From Pegea sp. RAD2-039 (lineage: Eukaryota > Chordata > Thaliacea > Salpida > Salpidae), in NCBI GenBank assembly GCA_034620365.1, contig JAQGEQ010000244.1:310001-374000 (forward strand): DNA of 64,000 bases, read 5' to 3'. This document shows positions 2,031 through 60,860 of the stretch, one piece after another. The notes below the pieces were generated by a model. The model searched no databases and was not told the origin of the DNA. It saw nothing but the letters and a program-made list of their open reading frames with translations. How positions within the stretch are numbered: position 1 is the first letter of the stretch; each line of letters begins with the position of its first letter. The translations under genes and the position numbers were made by a program.

Positions 2031-4350
2031 CAATGTATCTCAAGAAAAAAGGGAAAATAATCTTGTAAGATCTATATTTAGCTGCAGTTTGTAGAGCTTT
2101 TTTTTATTGTACATAAAATAATTTGAAAAAACATAATAACTTTTTTTTTGACTCAACAATAACTGTTCTATAATTTAATCTATATTTAAGCCAACGAGAT
2201 GATTTTTATTTTATATTCACTTTTACAAGATCTTTTTTGTATACTGTAATTTTGAGAAAATTAAAACTTGAGATTAAACTTTTTTATAATTTAAACTAAA
2301 CTCTTATTAAAAATTTAAAAAGAATTTCTATCAAACACTTAGAAAAAAATTAATTAAAAATTACTTACGGTCATATTTACACAAACATAATTTTATATTT
2401 ATAATAAAAATAAATCTTTTGAAACTGATTTTAGGAATATTGATTAATAGCAAATAAAGAAAACATAATTTACATTTTTATTTAATAGAATACATGTTTT
2501 TGTTGTTTGAAATAGATCAAACTTATACGGAAAATTGATCTTTGGAAAGTCAGTTTTGTCCGGACAAATACTAGATCAAAAGAAATTAATAAACCTAATA
2601 ATAAAAATAAAGAAACATTAGCAATCTTTCTTGCAATTGTTATTTCTTTTAATTTTTTTGAAGCCGACAAACGTGTCGATGTCCTTAAAACAAATTAGTT
2701 GAAGTTGGCTAGTAACCTTGTCTTTGAAAACTTCATGAAATTCAGAATAGTTGTATAACCGCTGAAAACATGTATTTTATCGATAGGATAGCTTAGGATT
2801 TTTTAATAAGTTCAAACAATATTGCAACAAACAGTAAAAACTTGAATAAAAAAAATGTGTTTTAAGATTATACATAAAAGGAATTAAACAAGTTGAGCAG
2901 CTCTTTCTGGTAACTTTTATTTATAGCTAAATTTGCAAGACCATAAACTTTAGAAGTAAGTGTCTAAAACATAATAATTTTGTTTAATTATTTACTTTGG
3001 CTCAAAAATAAACAAAATAATATGTGTGAATATTATAAAAATATCTTAAGCTAAGTTTCATAGTAATATTTTTGTTAATGACATTAGTCAAAAATCTAAA
3101 TGTTAAGATGATATTTTGAAGCTGTAAGCTATATAATGAGTGAAGTAAAAACTTTTTTCTGCTTAAACATTGCGATAATCAACATATAGCTAATTTCAAA
3201 TTAAAGTCTGTACAAAATTGTGCTTTGGTATTAAGAATTTTACTTTGTTCTTTATTGAACCCAAAACTGTAAGTTTAAGAAAGGCTAATTTAAAAGGTTG
3301 GTTTTTTCTACGTTGGCCTGGATAAGAAAATCGTATCTCGTACGTCATTTTAAAATGTGATAATGTTAATTAAATTATAAGCAGAATTTTGAAATTCAAA
3401 TTTAGGTGAAATTTATTTCATCACTCAACAACACTTCATTTCATAATGACGTAATCGAACAGGTTGACGTTGATAAAAATATCATAACTTCTTACTGTTG
3501 TTGTTATTAGATGACTCGCACAGCAAGAAGGTTGAGGTAAAAATGATGTGCAATTTCTAAGAAAATAAATTTTTGTGTCGTCAGTTTAAGCAAAAAGATC
3601 TAACTGCAACTTTCTCATTCCTAAAATTTCAAAATCATAATATTTTGTGAACTTTTGATAAAAACAAATATAGGATTATAAACAAAATATTTCATTTTAC
3701 TGAAATTATCAATTATTTGGATGATTATTGTCAGATATATTTTAAAAATTGATTTAAAAATTTTTCTAATAACCTTTTTTATAAATAACTTATATCATAC
3801 TATCGTTCTCAATTTAAATTATTTTTGTCTTTAGAATTTATTACAAAGAAACAAAATTATAGTTTTAAAAAAAAAGAATAATTTTTTAAACCTTACTAAC
3901 CAGCTTTAAAAATTAAAAAACTTTTTCTTTGTTTTGTAGATATTGTAGCATAAATATAAATATAAATTAAAAAATTAATAATTTGATAGCTAAGGAAGTT
4001 CAATTGTTTAAAAATACAATTTTGAAATTAAAGTATTCATTTAAATAAAAAATCAGTTCAAACAGTTTTCCACTGAAGCCACTCTCATATGACAGCAGAA
4101 TGATTTTCCTTTTTTTGTGATTATTAAAATAATTATAAATTCGTGGTTTTCGAAAACATTGATTGTTTACTTCTAAACCTAAGTAGTTTAAAAAAAATAT
4201 TAAATTGTACTTCCTTTACTATATTAAACTTAAGAAATATTGATTGTTTTGCGTTAGTAACAATTTTTTTTAATTTAAAAATGCCAAACAAACTTTTTTG
4301 ATTTTTGTATTTATAATTGAACAATTTAACGGTAGATGTCGCTAATGATA
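2030..4350 (+). repeat. 2.3 kb direct duplicate of 53.58-55.92 kb
   Basis: Colinear and highly similar to 53580-55915 throughout, including an R1 module (2560-2680, with the 14-bp palindrome TTTGTCCGGACAAA), the TACGTTGGCCTGGATAAG landmark (3310) and the 3420-3550 segment. Small indels distinguish the copies. The 62-codon frame at 2482-2670 is an R1 shadow. Confidence 0.85.
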
Positions 4351-5085
4351 TATAATTTTGAAACCTTTGTTTTCCTTCAGGCTATGTTTTCGTAAGTGAT
4401 ATTTAATAACTTGAATTTCAAGGCTTATTTTTAAAGTTTGTTGAAATATGTGGACATTATAATAATATCAGGACAAAAGCTAGTAAAAGGAGAATTTCAA
4501 TATTAGTCTAGATCGTTAAAAGTTTAGCTTAATTTAAGATATCGTTAAGTGTATTTTGGAATTTTGACTAAACGAGTTTCAGTTTAACAATGTATTTCAA
4601 ATAAAAATTAAAAATAATCTTGTAAGGATCTTTATTTAACTGCTGCTTAAGCTTTTGTTTTGCTTTGTTGTACGTAAAATATTTTGTGCAAGTATATAGT
4701 TTTTTATCTCTTTCTTAACTTTTTCTAATTATTCTTTTAAACTTTTCATTCAATCTCTAGTTATTGATTTTTAAGGTCAACGTCATTACTCTAATCACCA
4801 AGCTATTGAAGACTAAAAGGTTTTCTTGGACTTTATTTCTGATGTAAATATTTTTCATGAACTTCATTACTACTTTTAGCAAATTTTTCCCACTTTTTTG
4901 TAATATTTTTTTAATTCTTAAACATTGGTGGTTTGCTTCTTGGCGTAAACTTTGATTAATAAAATTGTGATAAAAAGAACAATTTCTGTTTATATTTGTT
5001 TACCTCTTTCGACAGAAGCTTTTGAGCATTTTCCAACGCCGAAAGTCATTATAATAAATTTGTTGAAATTATAATGATCATGAAA
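3420..5085 (+). repeat. block inverted at 13.89-15.50 kb
   Basis: Overlaps the 2.3 kb duplicate. Landmarks found inverted at 13890-15500: the AACAGGTTGACGTTGATAAA region, the TTTTCCACTGAAGCCACTCT segment (4065), a degenerate R2 core (4320-4405), and R6 (4795-5085). Confidence 0.8.
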
Positions 5086-5400
5086 ATTTCAGAGCTATTC
5101 ATTGATTTCAACATAAAGTTTCAAGTTATTTGTTTGTAACAGCTGTTTAGTACATTAAGCTTTAAATTAAATTTTTTAAATCTAATTCCATATTACTATT
5201 TATATTTCAGCCACAGGATGTCACTATAAAAGTTTAAGGTTTAAATTTTATAAACTTATAAACATTGTAACATACTATCTGTCAGACAAATAGTGTTGCT
5301 CAGTGACTTTGAGCTTCGAAAACATTCTTTATTATTATTCATACAGGGTTTATTCATACTCATACAATTAGCTTTTTATAAAAAGTTTTTCTAATAGTTT
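4795..5400 (+). repeat. R6 plus R5 repeat segments
   Basis: R6 starts at CACCAAGCTATTGAAGACTA and includes AACATTGGTGGTTTGCTTCT. Other R6 copies: ~13895-14190 (-), 24365-24660, 28265-28560, 44400-44690. R5 (5210-5400) runs from CACAGGATGTCACTATAAAA to TACAATTAGCTTTTTATAAA. R5 copies also lie at ~19660-19850 (-), 25795-25960, 28690-28890 and 45310-45480. Confidence 0.75.
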
Positions 5401-9870: not shown

Positions 9871-9873
9871 ATT

Positions 9874-10289
9874 GCTGCTGGTTGCTAGCAAATTGTTGCC
9901 AGTTGATAGAGGTTGTTACTGGCTGCTATTGGTTGTTGCTGGGTAGTAGGTGTTGTTGCTGGTCAGTAGTGGTTGTTGCTGGTTGATAATGGTTTTTCCC
10001 GGCTACTAGTGGTTGTTGCTAAGTGGTATTAGTTGTTGCTCAGTGGTATCAGTTGTTGCTGGTGGCTAATGGTTGTTGCCGGCTGCTAGTGGTTGTTGCT
10101 GGGTGGTAATAGTTGTTGCTGGCTGCTAATGGTTGTTACTTGGTGGTATTACATGTTGCTGGCTGCTAATGGTATTTGCTGGTGACTAATGGTTGTTCCT
10201 GGTTGGTAGTGGGTGTTGCTGGTTGTTGATGGGTGTTAGTGGTTGTTGCTACTTCGAAGTTGTTGTTGCTGGCTGCTAGTGGTTCTTGA
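9874..10289. repeat. 20-bp minisatellite, about 21 degenerate units
   Basis: Tandem units of about 20 bp with consensus TTGTTGCTGGCTGCTAATGG, each varying at a few positions and the outermost irregular. It is much richer in G/T than its surroundings. It begins just after a family-R1 hairpin (9851-9870) and ends about 30 bp before the POLR2I poly(A) signal. Twenty bases is not a multiple of three, so it is not a coding repeat. Confidence 0.93.
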
Positions 10290-10316
10290 TAGCAAAACTT
10301 TGATGTTGAACAGTTT

Positions 10317-10424: not shown

Positions 10425-11533
10425 TTAAGTCCAACGATGACCACAAGAGGAGTTTGTACAAACAAAGTACAACTTCATTCCTATCTTCTCTCTAGCTGAT
10501 TCAGACTGAAAGAACACTGCTTCTCTATGGTGACACCTGGTGGCAAAAATGAGTGTTGAAGAAATTAGAGAGCTGATGACTTACTTGGGGCAAGGATTAT
10601 GCTTTGTTCTAGGCAAGGTTGGATCCTGGGCTACATCAGGATTGATTTCAGACAATTCATCAACCTCATGCACAACTTTGTTGACATAAACACAAGGATT
10701 ATCTGCCTTGATTTGAAAACTACAATTGCGACACTAAAAAGAAATAATTTATAAAAAATGCTCATTGTAACTGTTTCAATTTTCAACCACCTTTAAAAAT
10801 GAATAACTCACAGCATACAGCAACTCTTTTTTAATTTTATCTTCTTTTGGATACAGCATGTTATTACTAAAAAACACAAATATTTCAGTGAATAATAATC
10901 AAAAAATGTCCCTGAAAACATAAACTAGCAAACAATTTTGAAACAGTAGATAAGAAAACAATAATTTTGTTTTGTTAATTAGTTTAGTATAAATGATATT
11001 TTTATAACATGTTTACTGAAAAAGGATTTTTATTTGATTTTCAAACGAATGAAACAAAATTGCATATTGGAAAATAAAGAAAAAATAAAAAATAAAATAA
11101 TGTAGAAAAGAATATTTTATATTTTTATTTCCTACTCTTTAGCTATGGTAAATTTAAAAAAAATAAAATTAAAAAATAAACTTGATAAAAAATTAGAATG
11201 AAAAATATATCTTAAATTAAATTTACTGAAACACGAATTAATAATTTTAATTGACTTTTTTATTATTAATTTAATACTAATTATTATCATTAAATAATGA
11301 GAAAAATTATTACCAATTTTGATCTTGAATGGTCTTTTTATGTTATAGCAAACTTTTGAAGATAAATAAGAAAAAATTGAGTTAAGATAAAGCAAAAGGA
11401 TTAATAAAATGGTAAGTACTTTATGTAGATATCTTTTTTAATAAATTAAAGTACTAAAAAACTAATAAAGCAACTTTTACCATTCTGGACAGAAATTTAT
11501 TCCAATAAAACTAGGCCCTTTGCTTGAGCTCAT
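10425..11533 (-). CDS. POLR2I: RNA polymerase II subunit RPB9 (four exons, complete)
   Basis: RPB9 is a small zinc-ribbon subunit of RNA polymerase II, important for start-site choice, elongation fidelity and transcript cleavage. Coding exons on the minus strand are 11481-11533, 10812-10866, 10585-10733 and 10425-10536 (369 nt, 122 residues; human is 125). All introns are GT..AG (614, 78 and 48 nt) and phases join without frame error. The first zinc ribbon uses C15, C18, C37, C40 (motifs [14 protein letters not shown] and ACRNC). The signature HEVDEL followed by AQDPTLPRT lies in exon 3. The second ribbon uses C84, C87, C112, C117 ([26 protein letters not shown]). The start is the only ATG in exon 1, just before [14 protein letters not shown]. 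The protein ends HRWT at TAA, directly followed by two TGA codons; relatives usually have one more residue (HRWTE). Identification is secure; exon edges nearly so. Confidence 0.97.
10867..11480 (-). other. POLR2I intron 1 (614 nt)
   Basis: Extremely A/T-rich intron with donor GTAAAA and an acceptor ending TTTTTTAG. The open frame at 11132-11395 inside it is low-complexity (K/I/N/F/S) with no recognisable motif, and I do not call it a gene. No repeat of the window's main families was noticed inside. Confidence 0.8.
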
Positions 11534-15500: not shown

Positions 15501-15979
15501 ATTTTAGCTGAAATCAAATATCAAAACAATCAATTTTCTTTAATTTAATATGGTTTATGATGTAAAAATTAACATTTTTTTCAAAACAACTAAAATTACA
15601 ACCAAATAATATATATTATCGAAAAGATGAATTTATAGATATATTAAGTATTACAATACAAGAAAAACATTTTGATTTCAACCGAGAGTGGCATTCAGTG
15701 GAAAACTGTTTAAACCAGATTTTATTTAAAAAAATACTTTAGTTTCAAAAGTAACTTTTTAATCAATTGAGTTTGTTCAGCTAACATCAAATGCATTTTG
15801 GAAATTTGTACTTTTGCTAATATATCTTCAAGACATTGTAAACTTTTTTAACAATTTAAAGCTAAAAATTAACGTTTCAAACATTTCTCCACTATATTTT
15901 AAATCTATAAGTTTGTTTCTTTGTGATAAACTCAAAAGATCACATCAAGTTAATAATGCTATTTGAGATAAGTTTACAG

Positions 15980-16125
15980 ATAAACTAAGAGATTACTTCA
16001 AGAAATTTGGCGATATTAACGACTGCGTGATAAGACAAAATCTAAGAACAAAACCTTCTTCAGGTTTTGGTATAATGTTATTTGCTGAACCTGAATTTGT
16101 TGAACAAGTAGTTATGTTTGTTTGA
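15980..16125 (+). pseudogene. captured RRM exon, copy a
   Basis: An acceptor (GTTTACAG) is followed by a frame encoding KLRDYFKKFGDINDCVIR, a degraded RNP1-like SSGFGIMLFA, then EPEFVEQVVMFV and TGA. This is the middle of an RNA recognition motif of the hnRNP A/B-D type (KLRxYFxxFGxIxDC ... GFGFVxF). The RNP2 strand and the C-terminal beta strand are missing, so it is one exon of a gene. It is followed ~260 bp on by an R1 module at 16386. Confidence 0.7.
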
Positions 16126-17469: not shown

Positions 17470-17547
17470 AAAAAAACGTTCTTCAGGTTTCTGTATAATG
17501 TTATTGGCTAAGCGTGATTCTGTTAAACAAGCAATTGTGTTTGTTTG
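17470..17547 (+). pseudogene. captured RRM exon, copy f (5'-truncated)
   Basis: Only the RNP1 half remains (RSSGF then IMLL and a DSVKQAIVFV-like end before TGA). It has the same downstream order: an R1 module at 17806 and the two-exon frame at 18555. Confidence 0.55.
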
Positions 17548-18554
17548 AAAAAAATGATATGAGTTACTTTAAAAATCCCTTTTATAGACAGTTAGAAACA
17601 ATTTGATTAAAAATCGTTTTAATTGTTCTACTTTAGAGGTGTTTATATTAATATTAATCATACAAATTATTTGAAAATTTATAATATAAAAATTAAAAAA
17701 ATAAGTAAAATTAATATAGAATTGTTGTCAAAAAAGCAACTTTCTCACAGTATAAAATAAAAGGAAAACTTATAATTGAAAATTAAAATTCTGAATTTAT
17801 TTTTCATCCGGACAAACTCTAGATCAAAAGAAATTGATAAAAGGAAGAAGTAATACTGAGATTTAAATTCTTACAATTTTAATTTCCAAAAGCATTTTGA
17901 AATCGACAACTTGTCGGTGATGTAATTGTTAATTTGAACTTAGTGGGTAATCTCATTAAATAAAATCTTATAAAAAGTCAAACCACATTTACTTCATTAT
18001 AAAATAGATTTTAAAAGGTTTTAATCAAACACTTGCAAAGTTCAAGTAAACAACTTTTTTGAAAATTGAAGATAAATATATAATTCTAATTCAGACTTAT
18101 TATCCAACATCAGTAAATCGATATCCGCTAAATTGAAACAATTTAAATCTGAAAATGGCAGATGTAAATACACTTGAACTAAAAGATTTTAAGAGATAAA
18201 AATAAAACCTTTTTTAAAAGAACCTAAAGAAACATTTTGATGGTGATTGAAAAGTGAAAAGTAAAATTGAAAAAGAAAATATAAAGTTATTTTCAAATAT
18301 TCAGAATCATTTATTAAAAATATTTAAGGTATTTTACACAAAAGGTATTTTTATAATTGTTGAAACTTTAAAAGTAAAATGTAGAAAGTAGCAGTAAGTA
18401 AAAATTAAATTAGTTTGAAATTTAATTGTTCGAGGATCTTTTATTTCTTATGATTTCTTAAAAACAAAACAGTTTTTATATGATCTCTTCAAAAAACGAA
18501 TTAGTAGTTTTCCACAAGATCTCACTGCGAAGTGGAACACGATCTTTGACAACG

Positions 18555-18719
18555 ATGTATAAGCCGGAAGTTGATGAGTTCAAAAGAATATCTGGTGTCG
18601 ATCGAAGGTGACGTCATCAGCGTATGACGTCATTAGTGACAGATTTGTTTATTTTTAGTTTGAAAGAAAACTTTTTGTAAGAAGAAGATGAGGATCAGAT
18701 GCAGATGCAGATGCTAATG
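18555..18719 (+). pseudogene. two-exon captured frame, copy 1 (left foldback arm)
   Basis: Exon 1 18555-18607 encodes MYKPEVDEFKRISGVDR plus AG. The intron is 51 nt (donor GTGACG, acceptor TATTTTTAG). Exon 2 18659-18719 starts with T, completing AGT (Ser), and ends in a GTAAGA donor after QMQMQMLM. Exon 2 has one TAA where other copies have AAA (Lys), so this copy is broken. The DQ-M-Q run shows a 6-nt tandem expansion. Function unknown. Confidence 0.65.
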
Positions 18720-21397
18720 GTAAGATGTTGATCTTACTGATGTTGATCTTAAAGATCAACAATGATTACTGATGAGGGCTTATAAACTTAACAATTTAAA
18801 AATTTTAATTATTCTTTTAAAAAATCATTAGAAAACAGATTTAATAGTATTCAATACTATAGCTAACTCAAATAAAGTTCTTAAATTACTTTTTCCCTTT
18901 TTTTGTTAGTTTTAATTCAACAAAAGTAGAACAATTTTATCTGCTGATAAAAAGTATTTGTTAAAAATAAAAATATTAATTTTTATTCTACAAATTTCTT
19001 AAAAGTAATTTTATTAAAAACTGAGATTTATCTAAAGCTAGAAATTTGAATGTGAAATATTTTGAAGTAAATTTATTTTTCGGTAAACTATTAAAAGAGA
19101 AAAACAAAACATGAAAAAAAAATTTGATTGTTTTCAATAATATTCTTTGTTTTTATGAAATTTAAATAAATTTATAATTTTAAGTTTAGGTTTGCTAATA
19201 ACAGCTACTGTTTTCATTTCTTAATAATTTTATTTATTTTGTTTATTTCTACTTTCTCATAATATTATCATTCTTGAAAAACATTGAAAAAGATTTTTTG
19301 TAAAACAACATTACTGATACTTAATTTGCATGAAAATAAAATAGTAAATAATAATGTTTGCTAAAAATATTTAAAATTTGAAACAGAAAATTACTTTTAT
19401 CATAAATTGATTTTTTTATTATTCTTTTTTTATACTTCAAAATCTAAAAAATTTCTAAAAAATTGTTTTTTTAAGGAGAATTGTTCTTATTGTTTTTTTT
19501 ACTTAAAGTTGAAACATTAAAATGTCATTAAAATATTTTTATTTTTAAACTTCATTACAATTGCATCCTTTTAAATATTTTTAAAATTAATCTCTATTAC
19601 ATACAGAAGTGAAATTTAAAATTGTTAATTCTGCTATTTTAATAAAAGTTTGATTTACTAGTTTTTTACTACTGATATAAAGCTAATTGTATGAGTATGA
19701 ATAAACCTTGTATGAATATTAATAAACAATGTTTTGTAAGCTCAAAGTCACTGAGTAACACTATTTCTCTCACAGATAGGAGGATACAACGTTTGTAAGT
19801 TTAAAAAAATAAACATAAAACTGTTATAGTGACATCTTGTGACCGAAAAATAAATAGTAAAATGCAATTAAATTTTAAAAAAGTTTCAGTGGAAAATTTA
19901 ATTTACTAAACTTTAATAAAAGTGAGGAAAAATGCAAATAGTTTTTTTAAGTCAGGTTTACGCTGAATCTTAATGAATTGACAAGGTATAATTTGTTTGA
20001 ACTTATTTTTTTGTATAATTTAAGTAATGTTTTTCTTAATGTTATAGTTTAAACCTTTAAAAAATTAATGCCAACTTAAACTGTAAATATAAAAGTATTC
20101 TAACGTGAAATTTGCGATTTTAAAACAAATTAAAAAGTTTTTTTGTTGTGAAACTCCTGTTTTCGACTGAAAAATAATAGTTGAGTTGATTCATTTACCA
20201 ATGTGAAAATTTATAAGTTTCAAATAGAAATTGAACGCAGTTTCATTCAAATTATAACAAGTAGTATATCGACGCTATACTTAAAATAAAAACAAGTCTG
20301 AAAAACAAAATCAGTGAACTGGAACTTTTTCAGTCTGATATGAAGTTTTAATTTGATAAATAAAATATGAGATGAAAATAAAACAGTTTGCTGAAGAATT
20401 ACTGTAGCCAATAAGCTTCTGGACTATCTAAAATTCAAATCACATCAAAACTAGTAAATCAAACTTTTATTAAAATAGCAGAATTAACAACTTTAAGTTT
20501 CACCTCTGTATGTAATAGAGATTAATTTTTAAAATATTTAAGAGGATGCAATTGTTATGAAGTTTAAAAATAAAACTATTTTAAAGACATTTTAGTGTTT
20601 CGACTCTAAGTAAATAGAACAATAAGAACAATTTTCTTTCAAAAAATAACAATTTGTTAGAAACCTTAAGATTTTGAAGTTTAAAAAAAATAATAATAGA
20701 AACAATCAATTAAAGATAAAATAATTTTCTGTTTCAAATTTTTAAATATTTTTAGCAAACATTATTATTTACTATTTTATCTTTATTTAAATTAATTATC
20801 AGTAATTTTATTTTACAAAAAATCTTTTTCAATGGTTTTTAAGAATGATAATATTATGAAAAAATATAAATAAACAAAAGAAAAAAATTATTAAGAAATA
20901 AAAACAGTAGCTTTTATTAGCAAACCTAAACTTAAAATTATATAAATATAAAAATTTCATAAAAAAAGAGAATTTTTTGGAAAATTATCTAAACTTTTTT
21001 CATGTTTTGTTTTTCTCCTTTAATAGTTTTCCCAAAATAAATTTACGTCAAAATATTTCACATTCAAATTTCTAGTTTTGGATATGTCTCAATTTTCAAT
21101 AAAATTTACTTTTAAGGCAATTTTAGAATAAAAATTAATATTTTTATTTTTAACAAATACTTTTTATTAGCAGATAAAATTATTCTAATTTTGTTGAAAT
21201 AAAACTAAACAAAAAAGGAGAAAAAGTAATTTATTAACTTTATTTGAGTTATCTATCATATTGAATACTATTAAATCTGTTTTCTAAGAGATTATTAAAA
21301 AAATAATTTTGGTTTTAAGGAATAATTGTATTTTTTTAATGGATAAATTTATGAAGACTCATCATCAAAATCATCAGCATTAAGATCAAGATCTTAC

Positions 21398-21554
21398 CAA
21401 TATCTGCATTTGATGCTCATCTTCTTTTTTCAAAATCTCTTCTTTCAAACTAAAAACCGAACTAATCAATCACTGATGACGTCACATGCTGATGGCGTCA
21501 CCTTTGATCGACATTAGAGGTTATTTTGAACTCATCAACTTCCGGCTCATACAT
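21398..21554 (-). pseudogene. two-exon captured frame, copy 2 (right foldback arm), intact
   Basis: Exon 1 21502-21554 encodes MYEPEVDEFKITSNVDQ plus AG. The intron is 52 nt (GTGACG..TTTTTAG). Exon 2 21398-21449 continues as Ser then LKEEILKKEDEHQMQIL, ending at a GTAAGA donor. There is no stop and no frameshift. The protein would be acidic and lysine-rich; no domain is recognised. Whether it is expressed is unknown. Confidence 0.65.
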
Positions 21555-23335
21555 CCTTGCCAAAGATCGTGTTCCACTTTGCAGTGAGATCTTGCGGATA
21601 TTAAACCTATTTTTGAAGAGATTATTTAAAAACTATTTTGATTTTAAATATTCATAAAAAAAGAAAGATCCTTGAATAATTTGGTGAATATTGGTTGATA
21701 ATGGTTGAATAATTAAACTTCAAATTGATCTATTTTTTACTTACTGATACATTTTTCTTTTTGTTATTAAAGTTTAAAAAATGATAAAAATACTTTTTGT
21801 GTAAAATATGTTAACTAATTTTGATGAAATAATCTTGAAGATTTCAAAAGATCATTTTATTCTCATTTTCAATTTTACTTTTCACTTTTCAATCATCATT
21901 AAGATGTGTCTTTAGTTTCTTTTATGAATTGTTCTATTTTTATCTTTTTAGATATTTTAATTGAATTGTATTTACATCTATTAAAAAAGAAATTCTGCTG
22001 AGTGGCTTTAAACTTACAAAACAATCCTTTTAACTATTCATAAATATTTAATTTCTTTTCCATAAAATGATTTCATTTTAATCTTAAAATAAAAAGATTT
22101 CTAGAAATCGTAAATCTAATAATTACCATTTAGTAAAAAAGTTTTAGATTATTATCAAACAACAAAGTCGTCCTCAAAATTTCAAATAAAAATATATGCA
22201 AAAGAAATAATATTTTTGAAAAAAGTATTATTCACCAAACAAATACTCTATATACCAAAGTAAATTATTACAATGGAAATAATTAATACTTTTGTATATA
22301 TATTTGGTTTGTGATAATAATTATTAATTTTAACATTTATTATAATGATTGATAAAACGAGATATAATAATTATTAGATACATAACATATTTTTGCTATT
22401 GTTTTATTAAGAAATAAACAAAAATTTCCTGCAAAATTATTCAAATTTTTTTACATAAGAAATAATCCAACTGATTTTAAAGCAAATTAGATTTCTTAAA
22501 TTTTTATAATAAAACATAAAATTCAAATTTGAAAAGTAGTAACAACAAAATTAAAATTTAATATTTTATTTTTAAATAGTAAAAATGTTCAAAAAATTGA
22601 ATCAAATCTACCGAGAAGGTAATGATTTTAAAAGCTTTGTTTTTATCCGGACAAATACTAGATTTAAAAAAGTTTATATAAATTAGGCTTACATATCAAA
22701 AGTTTGCATATGCAATAACAAACATTGATGTTTTTATTTTGAAGTCGACTAAATGTCGATGACGTTTTCCACAAGCTCAAAACAAGTTTTAACTTCAAAC
22801 ATTTTGATCGACTTTTTTATGTGGTTGCATTTTCATGACCCTCATTATTTAGTTTACAATTAATTTTGAATATTACTATCAGCGATATGTTTCATATATG
22901 AGTTTGATATATATTGTAATATCTGTAAATTTTTCATATCTTAATTAAAGTGAGTTTGTAAATCTTAATAGAATGGTTTCTCATACCGTACAATTAATAC
23001 ATTGAATCAGCTGCTATCAAACATTGTCATGTCAGAATCACTCGTGTTGTTCAAGCAGAAGTTATAATATTTCCAATATTGTCATTTCCAAACTGTGAAT
23101 TTTTCCTTTTTTGCAAGTTTACAGTGTTATATGCTTGGAGGACTACTGAAATGCTAGTGTTACATCCATTGCTTTCTATATTGTTGACTAAATAGATGTT
23201 GTTTGTGAGAATGTGTTACGAGAGGTGCTCTCTTCAGGCAACCATTTCGGATTTATTGTAATGAATAAATGAAATGACAAAATATACATTAAAATCAAAA
23301 TAATGATCAGAATAATTTGAAATTAAATTCTATTA

Positions 23336-23428
23336 TACCGAAACCTGACGAAGCTCTTGTCCTTGGAATTCGTTTTATCTCGCAGTCTTTAATATCGCCA
23401 AATTTCTTGAAACAATCTCTTAGTTTAT
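23336..23428 (-). pseudogene. captured RRM exon, copy d (3'-truncated)
   Basis: Acceptor GTTTACAG, then KLRDCFKKFGDIKDCEIKR and ASSGFGI, breaking off at ~23336. Compared with its inverted twin (34567-34727) about 1.1 kb is missing here. It belongs to the 21.3-23.7 kb side of the inverted duplication. Confidence 0.65.
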
Positions 23429-23689
23429 CTGTAAACATATCTTAAATAGCATTATTACTAACATGATGTGAAAAAGATCTTTTGAGTTTATCACAAAGAA
23501 ACAAACTTATAGTTTTAAAATATAGTGGAGAAATGTTTGAAACTTTACCTTTTAGCTTTAAATTGTTAAAAAAGTTTACAACGTCTTGAAGATATTTTAG
23601 CAAAAGTACAAATTTACAAAATGCATTTGATGTTAGGGAAACAAACTCAGATGACTAAAGCGTTATTTTTAGAACAATAATAATTATTT

Positions 23690-26600: not shown

Positions 26601-29420
26601 TCTAAAATTATAAGAGACTAAACTCTCGTTGTTTAAAATAAATTAAGTTTATAAAGAAAATTGTATTTTGAAAAGTGAGTTTTGTCCAGACAATTACTAG
26701 ATTAAAAGAAATTAATAAATCTAAACAATTATTAATAGGAAATTAATTTTTCATCCATTAATTCATTTCAAAGAATTTGAAATCGACAGCTTGTCGATGG
26801 ACAAAAATCAAATTAGATGGAATTAGTTAAAAACCTCATTTACAAAAATATTAGTAAAATCTGAGTAATTGCATTATTGAATAAAATGTCAAAGTTGTTT
26901 TTTTTTAGCTTTCTTTTTGTAAAGCATTTTTTGCTTTGTTTAATGATTTACACTATGAATTTTAATAACTTCTTCGCTTTTAAGATATTGAAATTTTTAT
27001 TATCAGATATACAACAAATTTAGAAAAATATTAAATGTATATATATGATTTTTGTCTTTAGTAAAAAAAACAATTAAAAATACAATTTTTAGTTTTAACC
27101 CTAACCTCATGTACTCATACAATTAACTTTATATAAATAGTTTTTATAATAGTTGTAGTTTTGAAAAATCATTAAACAGTTTAAAACTAGAATTTATTAT
27201 CTACTAAGAAGAAGGAAATACTTTCTCTGTAAGATTGATAGTAAAAGAAATTAAAAATCCTTCGAAATTGTAAAGTTTTCGATTAATTTGATAATTATTA
27301 TCAGATATATTTTAAAGGTTGATTTTAAATGTTTTTTATTAATCTTTTCTAAAAATAATTCATATAATAATTTTTGTTGTCAATTTAAAGTTTTTTTTCA
27401 TCTGAAAATACTTTCGATATAAGGTTGATAGTAAAAGAAATAAAATGCTTCGGACAGTTTTTAAAAAGTCAAACTTTTAAAGATATATAAAATTTACAAA
27501 AACTCAATTCAAAAACAAATTCGAAACTAAATTTATTATTTAAAAAAAGACCAGTTTAAACAGTTTTCCACTCATTGTTACTCTGGCTGGACAACAATTT
27601 TTATTTTATTTTACTATAAATAAAAACATAACAATAAATTAGTATTTTCAATAAAATTTATTTTTACTTTTTTTTAAAGTAGCTTTAAGAATATACCAAT
27701 TTTTACTTCATAAAATTTATTAATTTTAAGAAAAATTGTTTATATAAAAAATCATAAAAAGCTAATCAAAGATTTTTCAGTTTTATGTTTCTATAGTCGA
27801 AAAAGTTGACGCTAGACGTCGCTGAAGATAAATAATTTTGAAATCCTGGCATTGCTTCAGGCTATGTTTTCGTAAGTGATACTTAATAACTTGAATTTCA
27901 TGGCTTAATTTTAAAGTTTGTTGAAATTTGTAAACATTATAGTAATATCAGAACTAAAGCTGATAAAAGTAGAATTTCAATACTAGTCTAGATCGTTAAA
28001 AGTATGGTTTTAATTTAGAAATCGTTAATTGTATTTTGGAATTTTGACTAAAAGAGTTTCAGTTTAACAATGTATCTCAAATAAAACTTGAAAATAATCT
28101 TGTAAAGATCTATATTTAACTGCTGTTTAAGCCTTTGTTTTGCTTCGTTGCACGTAAGAAATTTTGCAGAAGTAGATAGTTTTTTATCTCTTTGTTAACT
28201 TTTTCTAATTAACCTTTTCATTTAATCTCTGGTTAACAATATTTAAGGTCAACTGTATTATTGGAATCACCAAGCTATTGGAGACTAGAAGATTTTCTTG
28301 GAATTTAGTTCTGATATAAATATCTTTCATAAACTTTGTTACAACTCTTTGCAAATCTTTCCCACTTTTATGTAATATTTCTTGTATTTTCTTTAATTCT
28401 TAAACATTGGTGGTTTGCTTCTTGGCATAAACTTTGATTAATGAAATTTTTACAAGAAGAACAATTTCTGTTTATAATTGTTCACCTCTTGTAAAAGAAG
28501 CTTTTCAGCATTTTACAACGCCGAAAGTCATTATAATAACTTTCTTGAAATTAAAGTGATCATGAAACTTCAGAGCTATTCATTGACTTTAGCATAACGT
28601 TTCAAGAAATTTATTTGCAACAACTGTTAGATACGTTAAACTTTAATTTGAAGCTTTTTTTTAAATTAAATTAATTTTTTTTATTTATTTTTCAGTCACA
28701 AGACAACACTAGATACGTTTTAGATTTATTTTTTAGAAACTTAAAACATTGTAAGCTCCTATCAGTCAGACAAATAGTGGTACTCAGTGACTTTGAGCTT
28801 ACAAAACATTGTATATCAATATTCATACAAGGTTTATTCATACTTATGCAATTAGCTTTGTATAAAAAGTATTTCTAATAGTTTTAGTTTTAAAAAATCA
28901 TAAAACAGATTAAAACTAAAATATTTTATGCACTTAGAAGATGGAAATACCTTCACTATATGATTGATAGTAATAAAAATAAAATTTGTATCAAAGTTTT
29001 AAATAAATCAAACTTTTTAAGTGAAAGAAAAATTTTCAAAAATTCACTTTTTCATGACAAATACTAGATGTGAAGATTTTTTATATCAAGAAATGTTCCT
29101 TTAGCTATAAGTAACCCAAAGTTATCTTACATAAGATCTAATTTTTGATATCGACCATTTGTCGATAGAATAATCTAGCAAATACAACTAACAGATAACA
29201 GCAAACTTTTAAATTTAAAACTGATTGATTGTTTGAGTTAATAATATTAATTGGCGTCTTCATCGGTTTGACCTCAAATATTTGTCAAAATTCAAGTGTT
29301 TGAAATTTATAGTCAACAGGATAGTGATTTGATTTACAAAAACATATGATAATTTTTCTTTTAATATTTTTTTGAGAAAATCAATGAGTTCAGTCGGTAA
29401 CAAAATACTCAATAACTTTC
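23690..29420 (+). repeat. repeat mosaic 23.7-29.4 kb
   Basis: R2 cores at ~23785-23865 and 27795-27876; R6 at 24365-24660 and 28265-28560; R5 at 24790-24890 (partial), 25795-25960 and 28690-28890; R1 at 26113-26225, 26686-26800 and 29052-29170. In the 26113 copy the hairpin is TAGAC..GTCTA, a paired change from TCGAC..GTCGA. The coding-like fragment at 24921-25097 is the only gene-like part. The open frame at 23719-23940 (-) is a reading of R2. Confidence 0.7.
24921..25097 (-). pseudogene. GC-richer coding-like fragment, unknown
   Basis: An island of balanced composition in AT-rich repeat DNA. On the minus strand 58 codons are open, with SDSDSNLNGHIDSEAGTF then DSPHDSSTFCGTRSWLGDW, ending in TGA. 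The same frame continues upstream past one TGA to an acceptor-like TTTTAG near 25128. It is Ser/Asp-rich. It looks like an exon or exon remnant stranded in repeats; the family is not recognised. Confidence 0.35.
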
Positions 29421-30700: not shown

Positions 30701-32080
30701 TTTTGAAGTGACTAAATTTGGCGATATTAACGACTGCGTGGTAAGACAAAATCTAAGAACAAAACCTTCTTCAGTTTTCGGTATAATGTTATTTGATGAG
30801 CCTGAATCTGTTAAACAAGTAGTTATGTTTGTTTGAAAAAAAGTTAATATGATTGAATTAAAAACATTTTTACTTAAATAGTTAGAAAGTATTTCACTGA
30901 AAATCTTTTTAATTATTGTACATTAAAAGCATTTCTTCTAATATTAATCATAATAATTATTTGAAAATTTATTATCTAAAACGTAATAAGTAAGAAATCT
31001 AAAATTAATTTAGAATTGTTGACAAAGGAAAGCTATTTTCACAGCTTAAAATAAAAAGATAAATTAAGAACTGATTTTCGACCGGACAAACACTAGATCA
31101 AAAGAAGTTGTTAAAATGAAGAAATATTATTGAAATTTGTATTTTAACAATGGTCTTCTGTAACAAACATTTTGAAATCGACAAATTGTCGATGATCTAA
31201 TATTCAACTTGAAGTTAGTGAGTAATAATGTCATTGATTAAAATTTAATAGGAAGTCGAACTAAGATTACTTTAATAGAAAATATTATTGAAAGTGATTA
31301 GTGATTAAAAAAGGTTTTATTTAACCACTTGCAAAAAGCAAATAAACAAATTTTATAAAAAAATGAAGATATCTATGTAACTCTAATTCAAACCTATCAT
31401 CCAACATCAACAAATCGATATCCGCTGAATTGAACAAATTTAAATCTAAATTCATAACGATCAAACCAAAATCAAAAATATCTTTCTTTTTTATCTAAAT
31501 CAATAGATTTATGTACTTACAGACAAACCTATGGTCTTTTTAACATTGTTAATTAGTGGTTTTTTAATGAATTGAGTTATAGTCTGGTTACCAGTGAATT
31601 CAGTGAGAGTATTTGAAGGATTTTTAGCGAAAATAGTTTTATTTTAAACTTAATTTTGTATTGAAAAAAGTTTATTTAACTCATTCGAAGTTTTGATAAT
31701 AGCTTTTAATTTTATTCAATACAAATTATCAAGAATATTTTTTACAAAAAGTATTATTAGATTATTTCAATAGGAAAGGAATAACTGCAGAATTTACATC
31801 TTTTCAAAAAGCAATTTTTAATCAAAAACTTTATAAACATCTTTAAAAAAATTAGAATTTACATAATAGTGATTAAATTGATATACAGTTCATAAATTTC
31901 TTGTTTCCTTTATTTCTGTCTATTTGAAAATTACTAGTTGTTCACGAACAAAGGAAGAAAATGTAAATTATTCATTAATTATAAGTTCACTATAGTTTAG
32001 ATATGAAAATTTTACTAATTTTGATGTGATTTCAATTCTAGATAGTTAAAAAACTTTTTGCCAAGAATAGTTGTGATATC
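30700..32080 (+). repeat. composite unit: RRM copy b, R1, lead to arm
   Basis: RRM copy b (30713), R1 31081-31195 (hairpin ATCGACAAATTGTCGAT), the CGATATCCGCTGAATTGAAC segment (~31410), then AT-rich sequence (31450-32060, nothing seen) before the foldback arm at 32083. Confidence 0.7.
30713..30835 (+). pseudogene. captured RRM exon, copy b (5'-truncated)
   Basis: Starts at KFGDINDC, keeps a changed RNP1 segment and ends EPESVKQVVMFV before TGA. An R1 module follows at 31081. Confidence 0.6.
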
Positions 32081-34310: not shown

Positions 34311-34566
34311 ATTATTATTGTTCCAAAAATAACGTTTTAGTCATCTGAGTTTGTTTCCTTAACATCAAATGCATTTTGTAAATTTGTACTTTAGCTAAAA
34401 TATCTTCAAGACATTGTAAACTTTTTTAACAATTTAAAGCTAAAAGGTAAAGTTTCAAACATTTCTCCACTATATTTTAAAACTATAAGTTTGTTTCTTT
34501 GTGATAAACTCAAAATATCTTTCTCACATCATGTTAGTAATAATGCTATTTGAGATATGTTTACAG

Positions 34567-34727
34567 ATAAACTAAGAGATTGTTTCAAGAAATTTGGCGA
34601 TATTAACGACTGCGAGATAAAACGAATTCCAAGGACAAGAGCTTCGTCAGGTTTCGGTATAATGTTTTTCGCTGAACCTGAATCTGTTGAACAAGCAGTT
34701 ATGTTTGTTTTAAAAGAGTTAATATGA
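34567..34727 (+). pseudogene. captured RRM exon, copy c (longest open)
   Basis: The best copy: acceptor ATGTTTACAG at 34557-34566, then an open frame of 52 codons with KLRDCFKKFGDINDCEIKR, RASSGFGIMFFAEPESVEQA, then VMFVLKELI and TGA. The acceptor phase requires one base from a preceding exon. The fold would keep RRM alpha-1, beta-2 and beta-3 only. Confidence 0.7.
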
Positions 34728-37139: not shown

Positions 37140-37800
37140 AAGATTGTTTTGTAAGTTCAAAGTCACCCAGCAGAATTTCTTTTTTAATAGATGTAAAAAC
37201 AATTCAATTAAAATATCTAAATAGATAAAAATATAACTATTTTTAAAAGAAACTAAAGACACATCTTAATGATGATTGAAAAGTGAAAAGTAAAATTGAA
37301 AATGAGAATAGAATGATCTTTTGAAATCTTCAAGATTATTTCATCAAAATTAGTTAATATATTTTACACAAAAAGTATTTTTGTTATTTTTGAAACTTTA
37401 ATAACAAAAAAAAAAGTATCAGTAAGTAAAAAATAGATTAATTTGAAGTTTAATTATTCAACCATTATCAACCATTATTCACCAAATTATTCAAGGATCT
37501 TTCTTTTTTTATGAAAATTTAAAATCAAAATAGTTTTTAAATAATCTCTTCAAAAATAGGTTTAATATCCGCAAGATCTCACTGCGAAGTGGAACACGAT
37601 CTTTGGCAAAGATGAGTAAGCCAGAAGTTGATGAGTTCAAAATAAAATCTGGTGTCGATCGAAGATAACGTCATCAGCATGCGACGTCATCAGTGATTGA
37701 TTTGATTGGTTTTTAGTTTGAAAGAAGATGAGCATCAAATTAAGATATTGGTAAGATCTTGATCTTAATGCTGATGATTTTGATGATGAGTCTTTATAAA
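37140..37800 (+). repeat. foldback arm, outer part
   Basis: Inverted relative to 21345-22020. It carries captured-frame copy 3 and is the distal end of the large inverted duplication 34.3-37.8 kb. Confidence 0.75.
37612..37750 (+). pseudogene. two-exon captured frame, copy 3
   Basis: Exon 1 37612-37664 encodes MSKPEVDEFKIKSGVDR plus AG. The donor has decayed (ATAACG instead of GTGACG). Exon 2 37717-37750 encodes Ser then LKEDEHQIKIL, an in-frame internal shortening, followed by GTAAGA. The reading frame is kept but splicing is probably lost. Confidence 0.6.
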
Positions 37801-39700: not shown

Positions 39701-40740
39701 ATAAAAATATTAAGGAATAAAAATAGTAGCTTTTATTAGCAAACTTAAAATTATATAAATATTCAAATTTCATAAAAACAAAGAATATTTTAGAAAATTA
39801 TCCAAATTTTTTCATGTTTTGTTTTTCTCTTTTAATAGTTTTCCGTAAAAAATTCACTTCAAAAAATTTCACAATCAAATTAAGAGCTTTAGATAAATCT
39901 CAGTATTCAATAAAATTTACTTTTAGGAAAATTGTAACAAAAAAAAAATACTTTTTTATTAGAAGATAAAATTCTTCTAATTTCCTAGATTTTACACTGA
40001 AAATAAAAAAGGGAAAAAGTAATTTATGAACTTTTTGTGAGTTAACAATCTTATTGAATAATATTAAATCTGTTTTCTAATGATTATTTAAAAGAATTGA
40101 TATATTTTTTTATGGTTAAGTTTATAAGTACTCATAATTAATCATCGTTGATCTTTAAGATCAACATCAGTAATATTAACAACTTACCATTAACATCTGC
40201 ATCTGATCCTTATCTTCTTCTTTCAAAAACTCTTCATTCGAACTAAAAAACGCACAAATCAATCACTGATGACGTCACATGCTGATGACGTCACCTTCCA
40301 TCGACACCAGATGCTATTTTGAACTCATCAACTTTTGGCTTATTCATCTTTGTCAAAGATCGTGTTCCAGTTCGCAGTGAGATCTTGTGGATAGTGAATC
40401 TGTTTTTGAAGAAATTATTAAAAAATTATTTTTAAGAAATCAAAAAAAAATGAAAGATAGTTGAATAATTGAATTTCAAACTAATTTAATTTTTACTTAC
40501 TGATACTTTTTGCATTTTACTATTAAAGTTTCAAAAACAATAAAAATACTTTTTGTGTAAATTATCTAAACTAATTTTAATAAAATAATTTTGAATATTT
40601 GAAAAGATCATTTTATTCTCTTTTACAATTTTACTTTTTACTTTTCCATCACCATCAAGATGGTTCTTTAGTTTCTTTTAATAATAATTTTATTTTTATC
40701 TTTTAAAATATTTTAGTTGAAGTTCGCAGTGAGTTTGTAA
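39700..40740 (-). repeat. foldback arm (minus orientation)
   Basis: Nearly full arm carrying captured-frame copy 4, followed in minus orientation by the flank matching 18.15-18.3 kb. It joins at ~39700 to the repeat seen at 0.2-0.4 and 9.4-9.6 kb, so the arm was inserted or truncated there. Confidence 0.7.
40188..40347 (-). pseudogene. two-exon captured frame, copy 4, intact
   Basis: Exon 1 40295-40347 encodes MNKPKVDEFKIASGVDG plus AG. The intron is 52 nt (GTGACG..TTTTTTAG). Exon 2 40188-40242 continues as Ser then SNEEFLKEEDKDQMQMLM and ends at a consensus GTAAGT donor. It is open throughout, with all four splice signals present. Confidence 0.65.
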
Positions 40741-42000
40741 ATAATTTCTTAGAAAACAAATTTAATTTAATTTATTCAACATGATATCGTTTTTAAAAAG
40801 TAATTAAAAAAAATAAAAGATCCTCCAATAAATGATCTTCAAATTAATTTAGTAAATATTAATTAATTAACCATACTAAAACTCACTTCATTAAAAAACC
40901 ACTAATTAACAATGTTAATGAGGTGATAAGTTTGTTTGTACAGACATTCATTTATTGATTTAGACGAGTTAGAAAATTTCTCGTTGATTTTAGTAGCATT
41001 GTTACATTTTTCAGTTTTATTTTTTTTCAATTCAGCGGATATTTATTTGATGATGTCGGATAATAGGTTTGAATTAGAATTATATATTTATCTTCAATTT
41101 TCAAAAAAGTTCTTTACTTGCTCTTTGAAAGTCTTTGATTAAAACCTTTTAATCTATTTTAAAATGAAGTAAATGTGGTTTGACTTTCTAGAAGATTTTA
41201 ATCAATGAGATTACTCACTAACTTCAAAATAAATATTAGATTATCGACAATTTGTCGATTTCAAAATGTTTTTAGAAAAGTAAAAATATTAGAATTTAAA
41301 ACTCAGTATTAAATCTTCGGTTTAACAATTTCTTTTGATCTAGAGTTTGTCCGGACAAAAATCAATTCAGAATTTTAATTTTCAATTAAAAGTTTTCTTT
41401 TTATTTTATACTGTGAGAAAGTTGCTTTTTTGACAACAATTCTATATGAACTTTACTTTTTTTACTTTTTAGATTATAAATTTTCAAATAATTCGTATGA
41501 TTAATATTAGTAGAAACACCTCTAAAGTAGAACAATTAAAACGATTTTTAATCAAATTGTTTCCAATTATCTATAAAAATATTTTTTAAAGTAACTCATA
41601 TCAACTTTTTCAAACAAGCATAATTACTTTTTTAACAGAATCAGGCTCAGCAAATAACATTATACCGAAACCTGAAGAACGTTTTTTTCTTGGATTTTGT
41701 CTTATAAAGCAGTCGTTAAAATGGCCGAATTTTTTGAAAAAAATCTCTTAATTTAGCTGAAAAGGTATTTCAAATAGTCAGCATTATTACTAACATAATG
41801 TGAAAAAATATTTATGCAAATTTTGATTTCTATATAAAGTTCTTGACAAAACAATTAATTTTATTGTTTACAATATTATAATGTTACACCTTTTATTAGA
41901 TATAATGAAATAGCTTAAGATATTTTTCTACATAATACATAATAATATATTATTTCTGTAATTAATTAATGGAAACATGTGTTTTTAATTTTATCGGAAA
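40740..42000 (-). repeat. composite unit (minus): lead, R1, RRM copy e
   Basis: Mirror of 17.47-18.3 kb: the GCGGATATT segment (~41030), R1 at 41243-41355 (perfect ATCGACAATTTGTCGAT) and RRM copy e (41609-41757). 41800-42000 is AT-rich with nothing seen. The frame at 40936-41142 is a repeat shadow. Confidence 0.7.
41609..41757 (-). pseudogene. captured RRM exon, copy e (decayed)
   Basis: Acceptor CTTTTCAG followed by KLRDFFQKI, then a frame disruption, with RSSGFGIMLFAEPDSVKKV recognisable further on. In minus orientation it is followed by R1 (41355-41243) and captured-frame copy 4 (40347), the standard order of the composite unit. Confidence 0.6.
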
Positions 42001-45611: not shown

Positions 45612-45664
45612 CTTCGATCGACACCAGATTTTATTTTGAACTCATCAACTTCTGGCTTATTCAT
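45612..45664 (-). pseudogene. captured frame, copy 5 (exon 1 only)
   Basis: Encodes MNKPEVDEFKIKSGVDR plus AG, 53 nt as in the other copies. The donor has changed to ATGACG and the element breaks off just beyond, with no exon 2. Surrounding arm sequence runs from ~45595 to ~45740. Confidence 0.6.
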
Positions 45665-46799
45665 CTTTGTCAAAGATCGTGTTCCATTTCACAGTGAGAT
45701 CTTGTGGATATTAAATCTGTTTTTGAAGAGATTATTAAAAAAGAATTATAATGTAGAATGTATTAGTCTTATATAATTACACAATGAAAGTTCTCTATTT
45801 TTATTATCGACCATTTGTCAATATATTAATGCGAAGGTTTATACGGAGAAGTAAAAACAGACATTCGAAGTTAAGACAACTTGAATGTTTCAATTAATAA
45901 ACTTAAACTCCGTGAATTGCAATTTGACATCAAATGTTTGTCGATTTTAAAAATTTTGAAGAAATTTTTATTTGTCATTGTAATCAACAGGATTGTGATC
46001 TGAATTAATAAAAGTTACGAAAAATACTACTTAAAACTATTTTTTCTATTTGTTTTTTAGAGAAGATCAATAAAGTTAGTTGGAAGCAAAGTATTGAATA
46101 AACAAAGAAACTGTAAATATTGAATTAAACAAAACTTTGTTTCTACTTTAAAATTACTTCTTATATGTTTATATCCATTCAAACTATCCTGCAATTCATG
46201 AAAAACGAATTTAAAAATATTAGTGAGTCAAATTGCAAGATCGAAGAATCACTAAAACTTACTATCAATCAACTACTTGTCAAAGATAACTGAGTCTCAC
46301 TACTACTCTTCTGCATTTTATAATGTAAACTATTAGAAAAAATACCAGGCGGGTAAAAGCGTTACAAAAAAAGTAGTACTGAACTTACTGTATAAAAACC
46401 ACTTAAGAACTTATTAAACATTTAGACTCACTATATTTAATAAAAACGATAAAAATGTTTTTAATGTAGAAATTTTTCACAACAAGATTGCGAATAAGTT
46501 GAAGCTTTTGTAGAAATATTTCAAACTTTAAATCTTGACTTATAATGATTAAAGAAACAAATCATTTGAGATTTTCTCTTTCTGGTTATTTTGATTTTCT
46601 TTTACTTTAATGATTAAAATAACAATAAATTTGTCTTTTGGATAAAGTTTGTAGTTTACTTTTTAACCTAAGTTGTTTTTAGAAAATATTAAAGTTTACT
46701 TCATAAAACTTAAGCAAAATTGATTATTTTGTGTAAGTAAAAATGTTTTGATAAAAATAATAAAAATTTAATTAAAGATTTTTGAGTTTTATGTTTTTA

Positions 46800-48917: not shown

Positions 48918-49364
<447 letters not shown>

Positions 49365-59879: not shown

Positions 59880-60860
59880 GTTTTAGAGTAAATTGCAGGA
59901 AGTTCAAAATCATATCGACTTACTCGTTGCACATGACTGCGTCCGACTTACGTCATATAAGCAAGAAAGTTAACTAAACGGGAAATCCCCTCTTCAATTG
60001 AGATAGTTGGTTTGTGAATAAAATGACTAAAAAAATTATAAATATAAAAAAATATAATTTTGATGTGGCTACCAGACAAGATTATACAAACATGATTCGA
60101 TTAACTATTAATTGTTGCTATGAGAAAAGAAAATAAGAAGATCATGAAAGTGGTCCAAAAATTGAGAAGAGACAGTGACTTATAATGATGACGTCACTTA
60201 ATGATGATGATGACTTCATTTTAATATTTTGTCAAAATCTTTTTATGCAAAGTTGTTTGTGATTTGATGACTTCACAAATCCACTAGTGACTTCATCATC
60301 AATATTCAACGTCAAACTCGTAAATTGATCATGACGTCATCAGTATCATTCACTCCAATAAGTCTGAAAGTAATGATTATGTCGACAGTTCAAGAGTTGA
60401 TGACGTCACTAAATTTGGTTTTTGATTTGATGTCACATAAACGTTGTTTCCTGAGAAAGTCATTTATGGTGATGAAGTCCTTTTATATTGTGGTATGGTT
60501 GAGTGTAGTGACGTCATTAGTAAGAAGTTTAGACAAGCTACAGAAGGCGAAAGAATTAAATACAACGTAAAATTATGCTGTGAACAAATTTGACGTCATC
60601 AGTTTTGATAGTAAAGAAGTAAAATCAAATTTTGAACAAACAACTGATACATTGATAAACGGGTAGGATTGAGTGACGTCATCATCATCGATTTGATGAT
60701 AAAATTGATTACGACATTATGATAATAATAATGACGTCATCAGTATATCTTCATATAACATTTAAAGTGATGATAGCAACGATGACGTCATTAATAACTA
60801 GTCATAAGTGTATGAGTTTACTTTGAAAACTACTCGAATTAGTCTACGTCATCATCATAA
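59880..60860. promoter_or_regulatory. candidate regulatory region: kappaB site plus CRE cluster
   Basis: GGGAAATCCCC at 59980-59990 fits the NF-kappaB/Rel consensus exactly, with a half-CRE (TTACGTCA) about 30 bp before it. Eight perfect TGACGTCA palindromes (ATF/CREB type) follow at 60189, 60332, 60401, 60509, 60591, 60674, 60732 and 60783. Repetitive GATGA/TCATCA sequence surrounds them. No promoter or start site can be assigned. TGACGTCA is also over-represented elsewhere in the window, so part of this may be sequence bias rather than binding sites. Confidence 0.4.

Follow-up and report, generated by a model that had tools for sequence, protein, structure and literature searches.

The window analysed here, a stretch of 64,000 nucleotides from Pegea sp. 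RAD2-039 (bases 310001-374000 of contig C266, in an assembly of 105.7 Mb and 387 contigs), holds five copies of a short exon-intron-exon structure, at 18555 and 37612 on the forward strand and at 21554, 40347 and 45664 on the reverse strand, all present as an earlier reading from the letters alone (the sequence-only reading) had listed them. All five match one locus elsewhere in the assembly, part of a CoREST (REST corepressor)-like gene on contig C264. We consider it probable, at roughly 0.8, that a single old genomic capture from this gene was amplified by local segmental duplication and then decayed neutrally. Judged by their sequence features, the copies would belong to the class of decayed partial gene copies in a segmental-duplication mosaic.

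The parent was first met as a weak match on C264 in a peptide search, and the window copies match it at L090:4922-5160. In a reading by eye, the exon that ends ...VANR is separated by 49 nt of intron from the 90-nt exon; after a 52-nt intron (GTGACG...TTTTTTAG) comes an acidic exon of 50 nt, and beyond an intron built of GTTGATCTTA repeats the next exon opens with ELPRIRMRVGEMYQVKIPS. These exons run in frame as ...VANR-VSLRSGTRSSTRMYKPKVDEFKKTAGVDR-SLKKEDEAEEEEEEADI-ELPRIRMRVGEMYQVKIPS.... In the peptide joined by hand from the exons, Pfam recognizes ELM2 at 30.4 bits (cut-off 21.7) and Myb_DNA-binding at 32.3 bits (cut-off 24.4), and no Pfam family matched the part 5' of ELM2. The best matches of the joined peptide in the PDB are REST corepressor 3 (E 3e-23) and REST corepressor 1 (1e-20), followed by MTA1. 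By its predicted domains, ELM2 and then a SANT/Myb-like domain, the parent is a CoREST-like gene. The sequence-only reading had proposed captured host exons, and this holds because all five window copies match the CoREST-like locus on C264, in which the same exon-intron-exon order leads in frame into the ELM2 and SANT exons. Adjoining the parent, exons at L090:227-1586, also read by eye, look like a second CoREST-like gene.

Comparison with the parent alters the picture of the first exon, which had been described as exactly 53 nt long and beginning at ATG. In the window the 53 nt from ATG to the donor are free of stops in all five copies, and an intron of 51-52 nt follows in four of them; the single stop in a second exon (TAA, in the first copy) and the two donors mutated to AT (at 37612 and 45664) are likewise as described. 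The parent exon, however, is internal and 90 nt long, and the methionine of the ATG lies inside the protein. The 40 conserved nt 5' of the ATG are the remainder of this exon. A start codon at the ATG is thus ruled out for the parent, whose exon starts 37 nt upstream and is read through in frame. Below, exon A denotes the captured 90-nt exon and exon B the captured acidic exon that follows the 52-nt intron.

The copies are 77-89% alike to the parent over 98-244 nt. Homology begins at L090:4924-4926, that is 2-4 bases inside the 90-nt exon and 35-37 nt 5' of the ATG, the exceptions being an exon-B-only fragment at L009:6654 and three aberrant copies that start at 4944, 4981 and 4981. From there it spans the intron and the second exon and enters the next intron, reaching ~5144-5161 in most copies, where the parent's repeats begin, and less far in others. 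On the 5' side of the left junction, similarity did not exceed that of shuffled sequence in the seven copies tested, and with L090:4300-5400 as the query the parent's ELM2 exon and the exon preceding it were unmatched in any copy locus fetched. Exon, intron and exon are homologous in order with the intron kept, as in a partial duplicate of the CoREST-like gene. Since introns were carried along, the capture must have taken place at the DNA level, and since nearly all copies have the same left junction, a single capture event is indicated.

The genome-wide set of copies was assembled from several searches. With copy 1 as the query, 71 candidate places were obtained and 40 of the 71 were scored; all 40 match, and the two-exon pattern therefore recurs far beyond chance. 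A second copy also gave 71 candidates, of which 40 were scored, and the peptide search gave 75, all scored, with 86 matches, some places matching as two pieces. The alignment, at first of 28 copies, later comprised 61 rows, which correspond to 60 places, one place on C254 being doubled, and to 58 distinct sequences. The main counts rest on 55 distinct copies, the aberrant rows L066_177, L067_299 and L083_161 (exon A lengths 88, 82 and 88 nt) being left out. The doubled place (L051 = L084) is counted twice in the indel, CGA-codon and codon-position counts and in the 59 rows of the exact-match comparison given below, and once in the counts with 55 copies; removing it altered the main counts little and left the probabilities as they were.

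The suggestion that the exons were functional while spreading is not borne out by these copies: nonsynonymous changes are not depleted, exons and introns have similar substitution rates, and exons A and B together contain a stop in 28 of the 55 copies. Some stops are common to several copies, and 23 copies have one within the full exon A and 11 within its 53-nt part, so that the stop-free first exon described for the window does not extend to the genome at large. A GT donor is retained in 31 copies and lost in 24, an AG acceptor is present in 47, and both splice sites in 24; only 14 copies have both sites and no stop. Substitutions per site on the tree amount to 1.77 for exon A, 1.92 for the intron, 2.06 for exon B and 1.65 for the next intron. 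In the parent frame, for an expected synonymous fraction of 0.268, we counted 21 synonymous and 82 nonsynonymous changes with twelve new stops on terminal branches (omega-like ratio 1.43, p 0.15), and 8 and 47 with four new stops on internal branches (2.15, p 0.047); the tests assume a single tree for all sites, and any recombination between copies would raise these counts. Synonymous changes thus fall below expectation on internal branches and do not exceed it on terminal ones, giving no sign of purifying selection in the reading frame. Exon A stops, in 23 of 55 copies, are more numerous than in any of 300 runs of a neutral simulation (mean 12.6, sd 3.1, maximum 22), which ignores the shared ancestry of the copies. 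CGA codons are the site of 19 of the 26 stop occurrences, as CpG decay would give, and such decay is the probable cause.

Several observations do not sit easily with purely neutral decay. Exon A has no indel pattern in its 90 nt, as compared with 20 in the other 169 aligned nt, when by our arithmetic ~11 would be expected at the rate of the other regions. The exon B indels common to several copies, of 3, 6 and 18 nt, are all multiples of three. Third codon positions are variable at 8 of 29 sites and the other two positions at 15 of 30 each, a trend that stays when CpG-capable sites are removed (3 of 19, as compared with 8 of 22 and 9 of 20). Finally, homology to the parent breaks off within ~2 nt of the parent's 3' splice site, a coincidence that a randomly placed DNA break would not require. 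All of these weigh against the explanation that we prefer. The lack of indels in exon A is not decisive, because the other regions are low-complexity or tandem-repetitive and three aberrant exon A copies were dropped; the absence of indels claimed for exon 1 stands among the aligned copies with those three rows set aside. The further claim that exon 2 changes length in multiples of three is true of the changes common to several copies and fails for four others (11, 2, 1 and 2 nt), each in one copy. Low third-position variability is the opposite of what purifying selection gives, and it is incompletely explained.

These same features could be read as the mark of a working, or recently working, family of short proteins under positive or frame-preserving selection. 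The exon A without indels, the triplet indels of exon B, the shortage of synonymous changes on internal branches and the 14 copies with both splice sites and no stop would all fit such a family, whereas the stops in half of the copies, some of them in common, the donors lost in 24, the similar rates of exon and intron and the prevalence of stops at CGA codons would not. Moreover, exon B is 34, 37, 52, 55 or 61 nt long in 51 of 55 copies and thus 2 modulo 3 off the 50 nt of the parent, and its join to the parent's next exon would therefore be out of frame. This offset, together with the excess of amino-acid change on internal branches, speaks against an early in-frame phase. We regard a working family as highly improbable. 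As for other frames, a ratio of 0.44 from 27 copies made sense frame 2 look constrained, but the ratio was 0.87 once 55 copies were used, and the frame was rejected; antisense frame 0 gave a ratio of 0.60 (p 0.002) and is judged not to be coding because it is interrupted by a stop in 54 of 55 copies.

Apart from the parent, copies lie on C266, C254, C91, C95, C92, C98, C267, C64, C134, C103 and C283, counting as placed those candidates that were scored; these 11 contigs amount to 3.50 Mb of the 105.7 Mb, or 3.3% of the assembly. C91 holds two units at a distance of 5.2 kb whose sequences agree at 94% over 4.5 kb, and L012 and L014a carry the same 4.5-kb unit at 92-93%. Two units on C254 are 5.15 kb apart and 89% alike over the comparable 1.2 kb of the fetched stretch, and the C134 and C92 copies have 4.4 kb in common at 97%; six of the 11 units compared have only ~870 bp in common with the 4.5-kb unit. 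Common flanks thus extend well beyond the gene fragment in units that are tandem or nearby, as segmental duplication would leave them. Compared copy by copy, the left limits of common sequence fall at 17470, 17893, 18160, 18172, 18251 and 18473 and the right limits at 19059-19061, 19182, 19255, 19317, 19340, 19538 and 19665, and no common element end was found. Around four other copies the inverted repeats (the five longest per region) are weak and AT-rich, the longest having 51 nt at 71% identity. The varying limits and weak inverted repeats point more to segmental duplication on a local scale than to an element whose ends are fixed, and the tandem units, the long common flanks and the confinement to 11 contigs argue that duplication drove the multiplication.

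The second proposal of the sequence-only reading, the coding part of an undescribed element, is not supported: the coding sequence stems from a host gene, the copies found lie within 3.3% of the assembly with varying flanks, and no element protein was seen in the window. The foldback described there is present, with arms that are 82% alike. It consists, over 18160-21979, of two units in opposite orientation with the captured exons inside the arms, and probably originated by inverted duplication. Copies 1 and 2 thus sit in long inverted arms, which might suggest that the exons were carried and spread by a transposon with terminal inverted repeats (a Pack-TIR), like Ssk-FB4 in the Foldback elements of the fly. 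Animal Pack-TIRs, and above all Ssk-FB4 of Drosophila, are the closest published case considered here; in Ssk-FB4, exons of a host gene were captured together with their introns, the loci are separate, each with its own target-site duplication, and a protein is produced (PMC8277862). The present copies resemble it in holding host exons with introns, in being copied at the DNA level and in occurring in several copies near foldback-like inverted repeats; they differ from it in being clustered, in having long common flanks, in carrying the fragment inside the arms and in having stops in half of the copies (PMC8277862). The position of the exons inside rather than between the arms, the weakness of the inverted repeats around the four other copies, the differing limits of common sequence and the narrow confinement also weigh against transposition, and the dispersed insertion loci expected of a Pack-TIR were not found among the copies. 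We consider this route unlikely.

Since both inverted arms hold exons of the parent, one may also ask whether these units give rise to hairpin RNAs or small RNAs by which the CoREST-like parent is silenced. The arms are only 82% alike, however, and exact matches to the parent exon A reach 21 nt in only four of the 58 distinct copies, none being longer and the median being 19. Furthermore, of 20 other stretches, 17 have one full core and three have two in the same orientation. A silencing role is accordingly extremely improbable. L009 carries an additional exon-B fragment in opposite orientation.

Under the preferred explanation of capture, duplication and decay, ~240 bp of genomic DNA of the CoREST-like gene, running from the 90-nt exon through the 52-nt intron and the acidic exon into the first part of the next intron, would have been captured and inserted a single time into an AT-rich region full of repeats. 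The window has a GC content of 21-29% (2-kb steps) and, up to ~59 kb, is largely a repeat mosaic common to other stretches of the same contigs; it gave no match to a phage sequence collection, to Rfam or in a tRNA scan. The assembly has an animal-like look, with mTOR-like exons, the CoREST-like gene, the hnRNP-like gene and C2H2 zinc-finger genes; a 5.8S rRNA gene lies at C125:289211-289363, and a search for COX1 gave no match. The composite unit, in several copies with an upstream hnRNP exon on the same strand, would then have been copied, along with the DNA next to it, through tandem, inverted and segmental duplications until it occupied 60 places or more, presumably decaying after capture without visible coding constraint. 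Segmental duplications (duplicons) can carry partial gene copies, and the arrays are like them in forming a mosaic of locally duplicated modules, direct and inverted, with pieces of several genes. They differ in belonging to a small AT-rich genome, with a mosaic that lies partly on C254, which also holds C2H2 zinc-finger genes. A literature search, limited in extent and no proof of absence in print, yielded no account of a similar zinc-finger/gene-fragment mosaic or of a palindromic intron motif.

Table. Captured CoREST-like exons, inverted arms and hnRNP-like fragments in the window
Feature	Position	Strand	Basis
Copy 1 exon A, 90 nt (last 53 nt formerly described as exon 1)	18518..18607	+	blastn to parent from L090:4924, copy alignment
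Copy 1 intron, GT...AG, 51 nt	18608..18658	+	parent comparison, copy alignment
Copy 1 exon B, 61 nt, in-frame TAA	18659..18719	+	copy alignment
Copy 1, start of the parent's next intron	18720..18751	+	parent homology reaches 18751
Copy 2 exon A, oppositely oriented arm	21502..21591	-	parent comparison, copy alignment
Copy 2 intron, 52 nt	21450..21501	-	copy alignment
Copy 2 exon B, 52 nt	21398..21449	-	copy alignment
Copy 3 exon A, donor mutated to AT	37575..37664	+	parent comparison, copy alignment
Copy 3 intron, 52 nt	37665..37716	+	copy alignment
Copy 3 exon B, 34 nt, 18-nt deletion	37717..37750	+	copy alignment
Copy 4 exon A	40295..40384	-	parent comparison, copy alignment
Copy 4 intron, 52 nt	40243..40294	-	copy alignment
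Copy 4 exon B, 55 nt	40188..40242	-	copy alignment
Copy 5 exon A only; parent homology ends at 45602; donor AT; stop in 5' part	45612..45701	-	parent comparison, copy alignment
Left inverted arm, decayed repeat unit with copy 1	18160..19665	+	inverted-repeat and self comparison
Right inverted arm, second unit with copy 2, 82% like left arm	20447..21979	-	inverted-repeat and self comparison
hnRNP-like fragment, RRM-coding exon 3, 5' of copy 1	15976..16113	+	67% amino acid identity to C6 gene
Second, truncated hnRNP exon-3/intron fragment, 5' of copy 1	17474..17629	+	66% DNA identity to L052:5008-5156
hnRNP exon-3 fragment, 5' of copy 2	23325..23432	-	sequence comparison
hnRNP exon-3 fragment without CoREST exons after it; repeat tail resumes at 32134	30714..30824	+	sequence comparison
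hnRNP exon-3 fragment, 5' of copy 3	34563..34700	+	Pfam RRM_1 E 3e-08 for window:34554-34724
hnRNP exon-3 fragment, 5' of copy 4	41613..41741	-	sequence comparison

Fragments of an hnRNP-like exon 3 lie 5' of copies 1-4 on the same strand, and none was seen 5' of copy 5. An apparently intact hnRNP-like gene on C6, which we take to be of the hnRNP A/B-D-like type, has two RRM stretches by Pfam and 63% identity to the window fragment. The fragment is also found on C254 (343-564 kb), C255, C60 and C89, with 41-52% identity to the window piece. All four stretches L053-L056, on C255 and C254, hold C2H2 zinc-finger genes together with an hnRNP exon-3 fragment, and in three of these stretches the genes have about 9-11 fingers; at least that of L055 has a stop inside the finger array, and that of L054 is apparently broken. 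A zinc-finger pseudogene with stops lies in the window at 48918-49337. C2H2 zinc-finger genes occur as tandem clusters, and the array resembles such clusters in the genes of L053-L056 and the pseudogene of the window; it is unlike them in having an hnRNP exon-3 fragment in each of the four stretches and, in the window, largely decayed repeats.

At 10428-10733 (reverse strand) the window also holds the last two exons of an RPB9 (RNA polymerase II subunit)-like gene, with E 2e-38 to RPB9 in the PDB. The 30 best of 31 genome matches are RPB9-like copies (one partial), located on C236 and C96 as well as on the array contigs, and 28 of these 30 copies are without a stop, unlike the CoREST-derived exons; seven copies are 93-99% alike. 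A recent or functional amplification of the RPB9-like exons is possible. Three places on C92, and one each on C134 and C283, have RPB9-like exons ~2.7-4 kb 3' of the captured exons and in the same orientation. The phases would fit a splice from the captured exons to these, which was considered but rejected at these places, since all five copies concerned (L027, L028 and L073-L075) have an exon A stop and an AT donor. Minisatellites of TGGTTGTTGC-like units adjoin the RPB9-like exons in the window (9872-10292) and in L027 (7162-8201); another minisatellite, in an intron of the CoREST-like parent (L090 5760-7000), has a different unit.

The tracing of these copies turns an apparent two-exon mystery gene into an event with a named parent, a common junction on the left and 60 or more daughter copies, and the three together allow duplication and decay to be dated in a small AT-rich genome. 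An intact-looking exon-intron structure repeated within one window is not in itself evidence of function. There is a slim chance that the duplicated units once made chimeras, the CoREST-like, hnRNP and RPB9 exons having been spliced early on into short chimeric proteins with the frame kept, and that a few of the 14 intact copies may still be expressed. Expression of even a few copies, if it proves real, would make the arrays an origin of chimeric genes built from regulatory genes.

Among the remaining sequences, the reverse-strand segment at 27769-27861 (PEAMPGFQNYLSSATSSVNFF...) is a repeat whose 150 scored matches, out of 197 candidates, are spread over many contigs, C254, C255 and C60 among them; a genome search gave no convincing parent outside the arrays for it or for 3199-3369 (reverse strand). 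The window end, 61925-64000, is not in common with the other array stretches compared, and on its reverse strand are open frames of 156 and 486 amino acids, the latter running off the window, neither of which has a Pfam match above the cut-off. The palindrome TGACGTCA occurs 20 times in the window against 0.23 expected from shuffles, including 18609, 18625 and 60189-60790. Stretches like TGATGACGTCATCA, read by eye, lie in the ~50-nt introns of ordinary genes, an mTOR-like gene (L038, on C190) and the CoREST-like gene of L090. This distribution suggests that TGACGTCA/TGATGACGTCATCA may be an intron-associated motif, perhaps introner-like.

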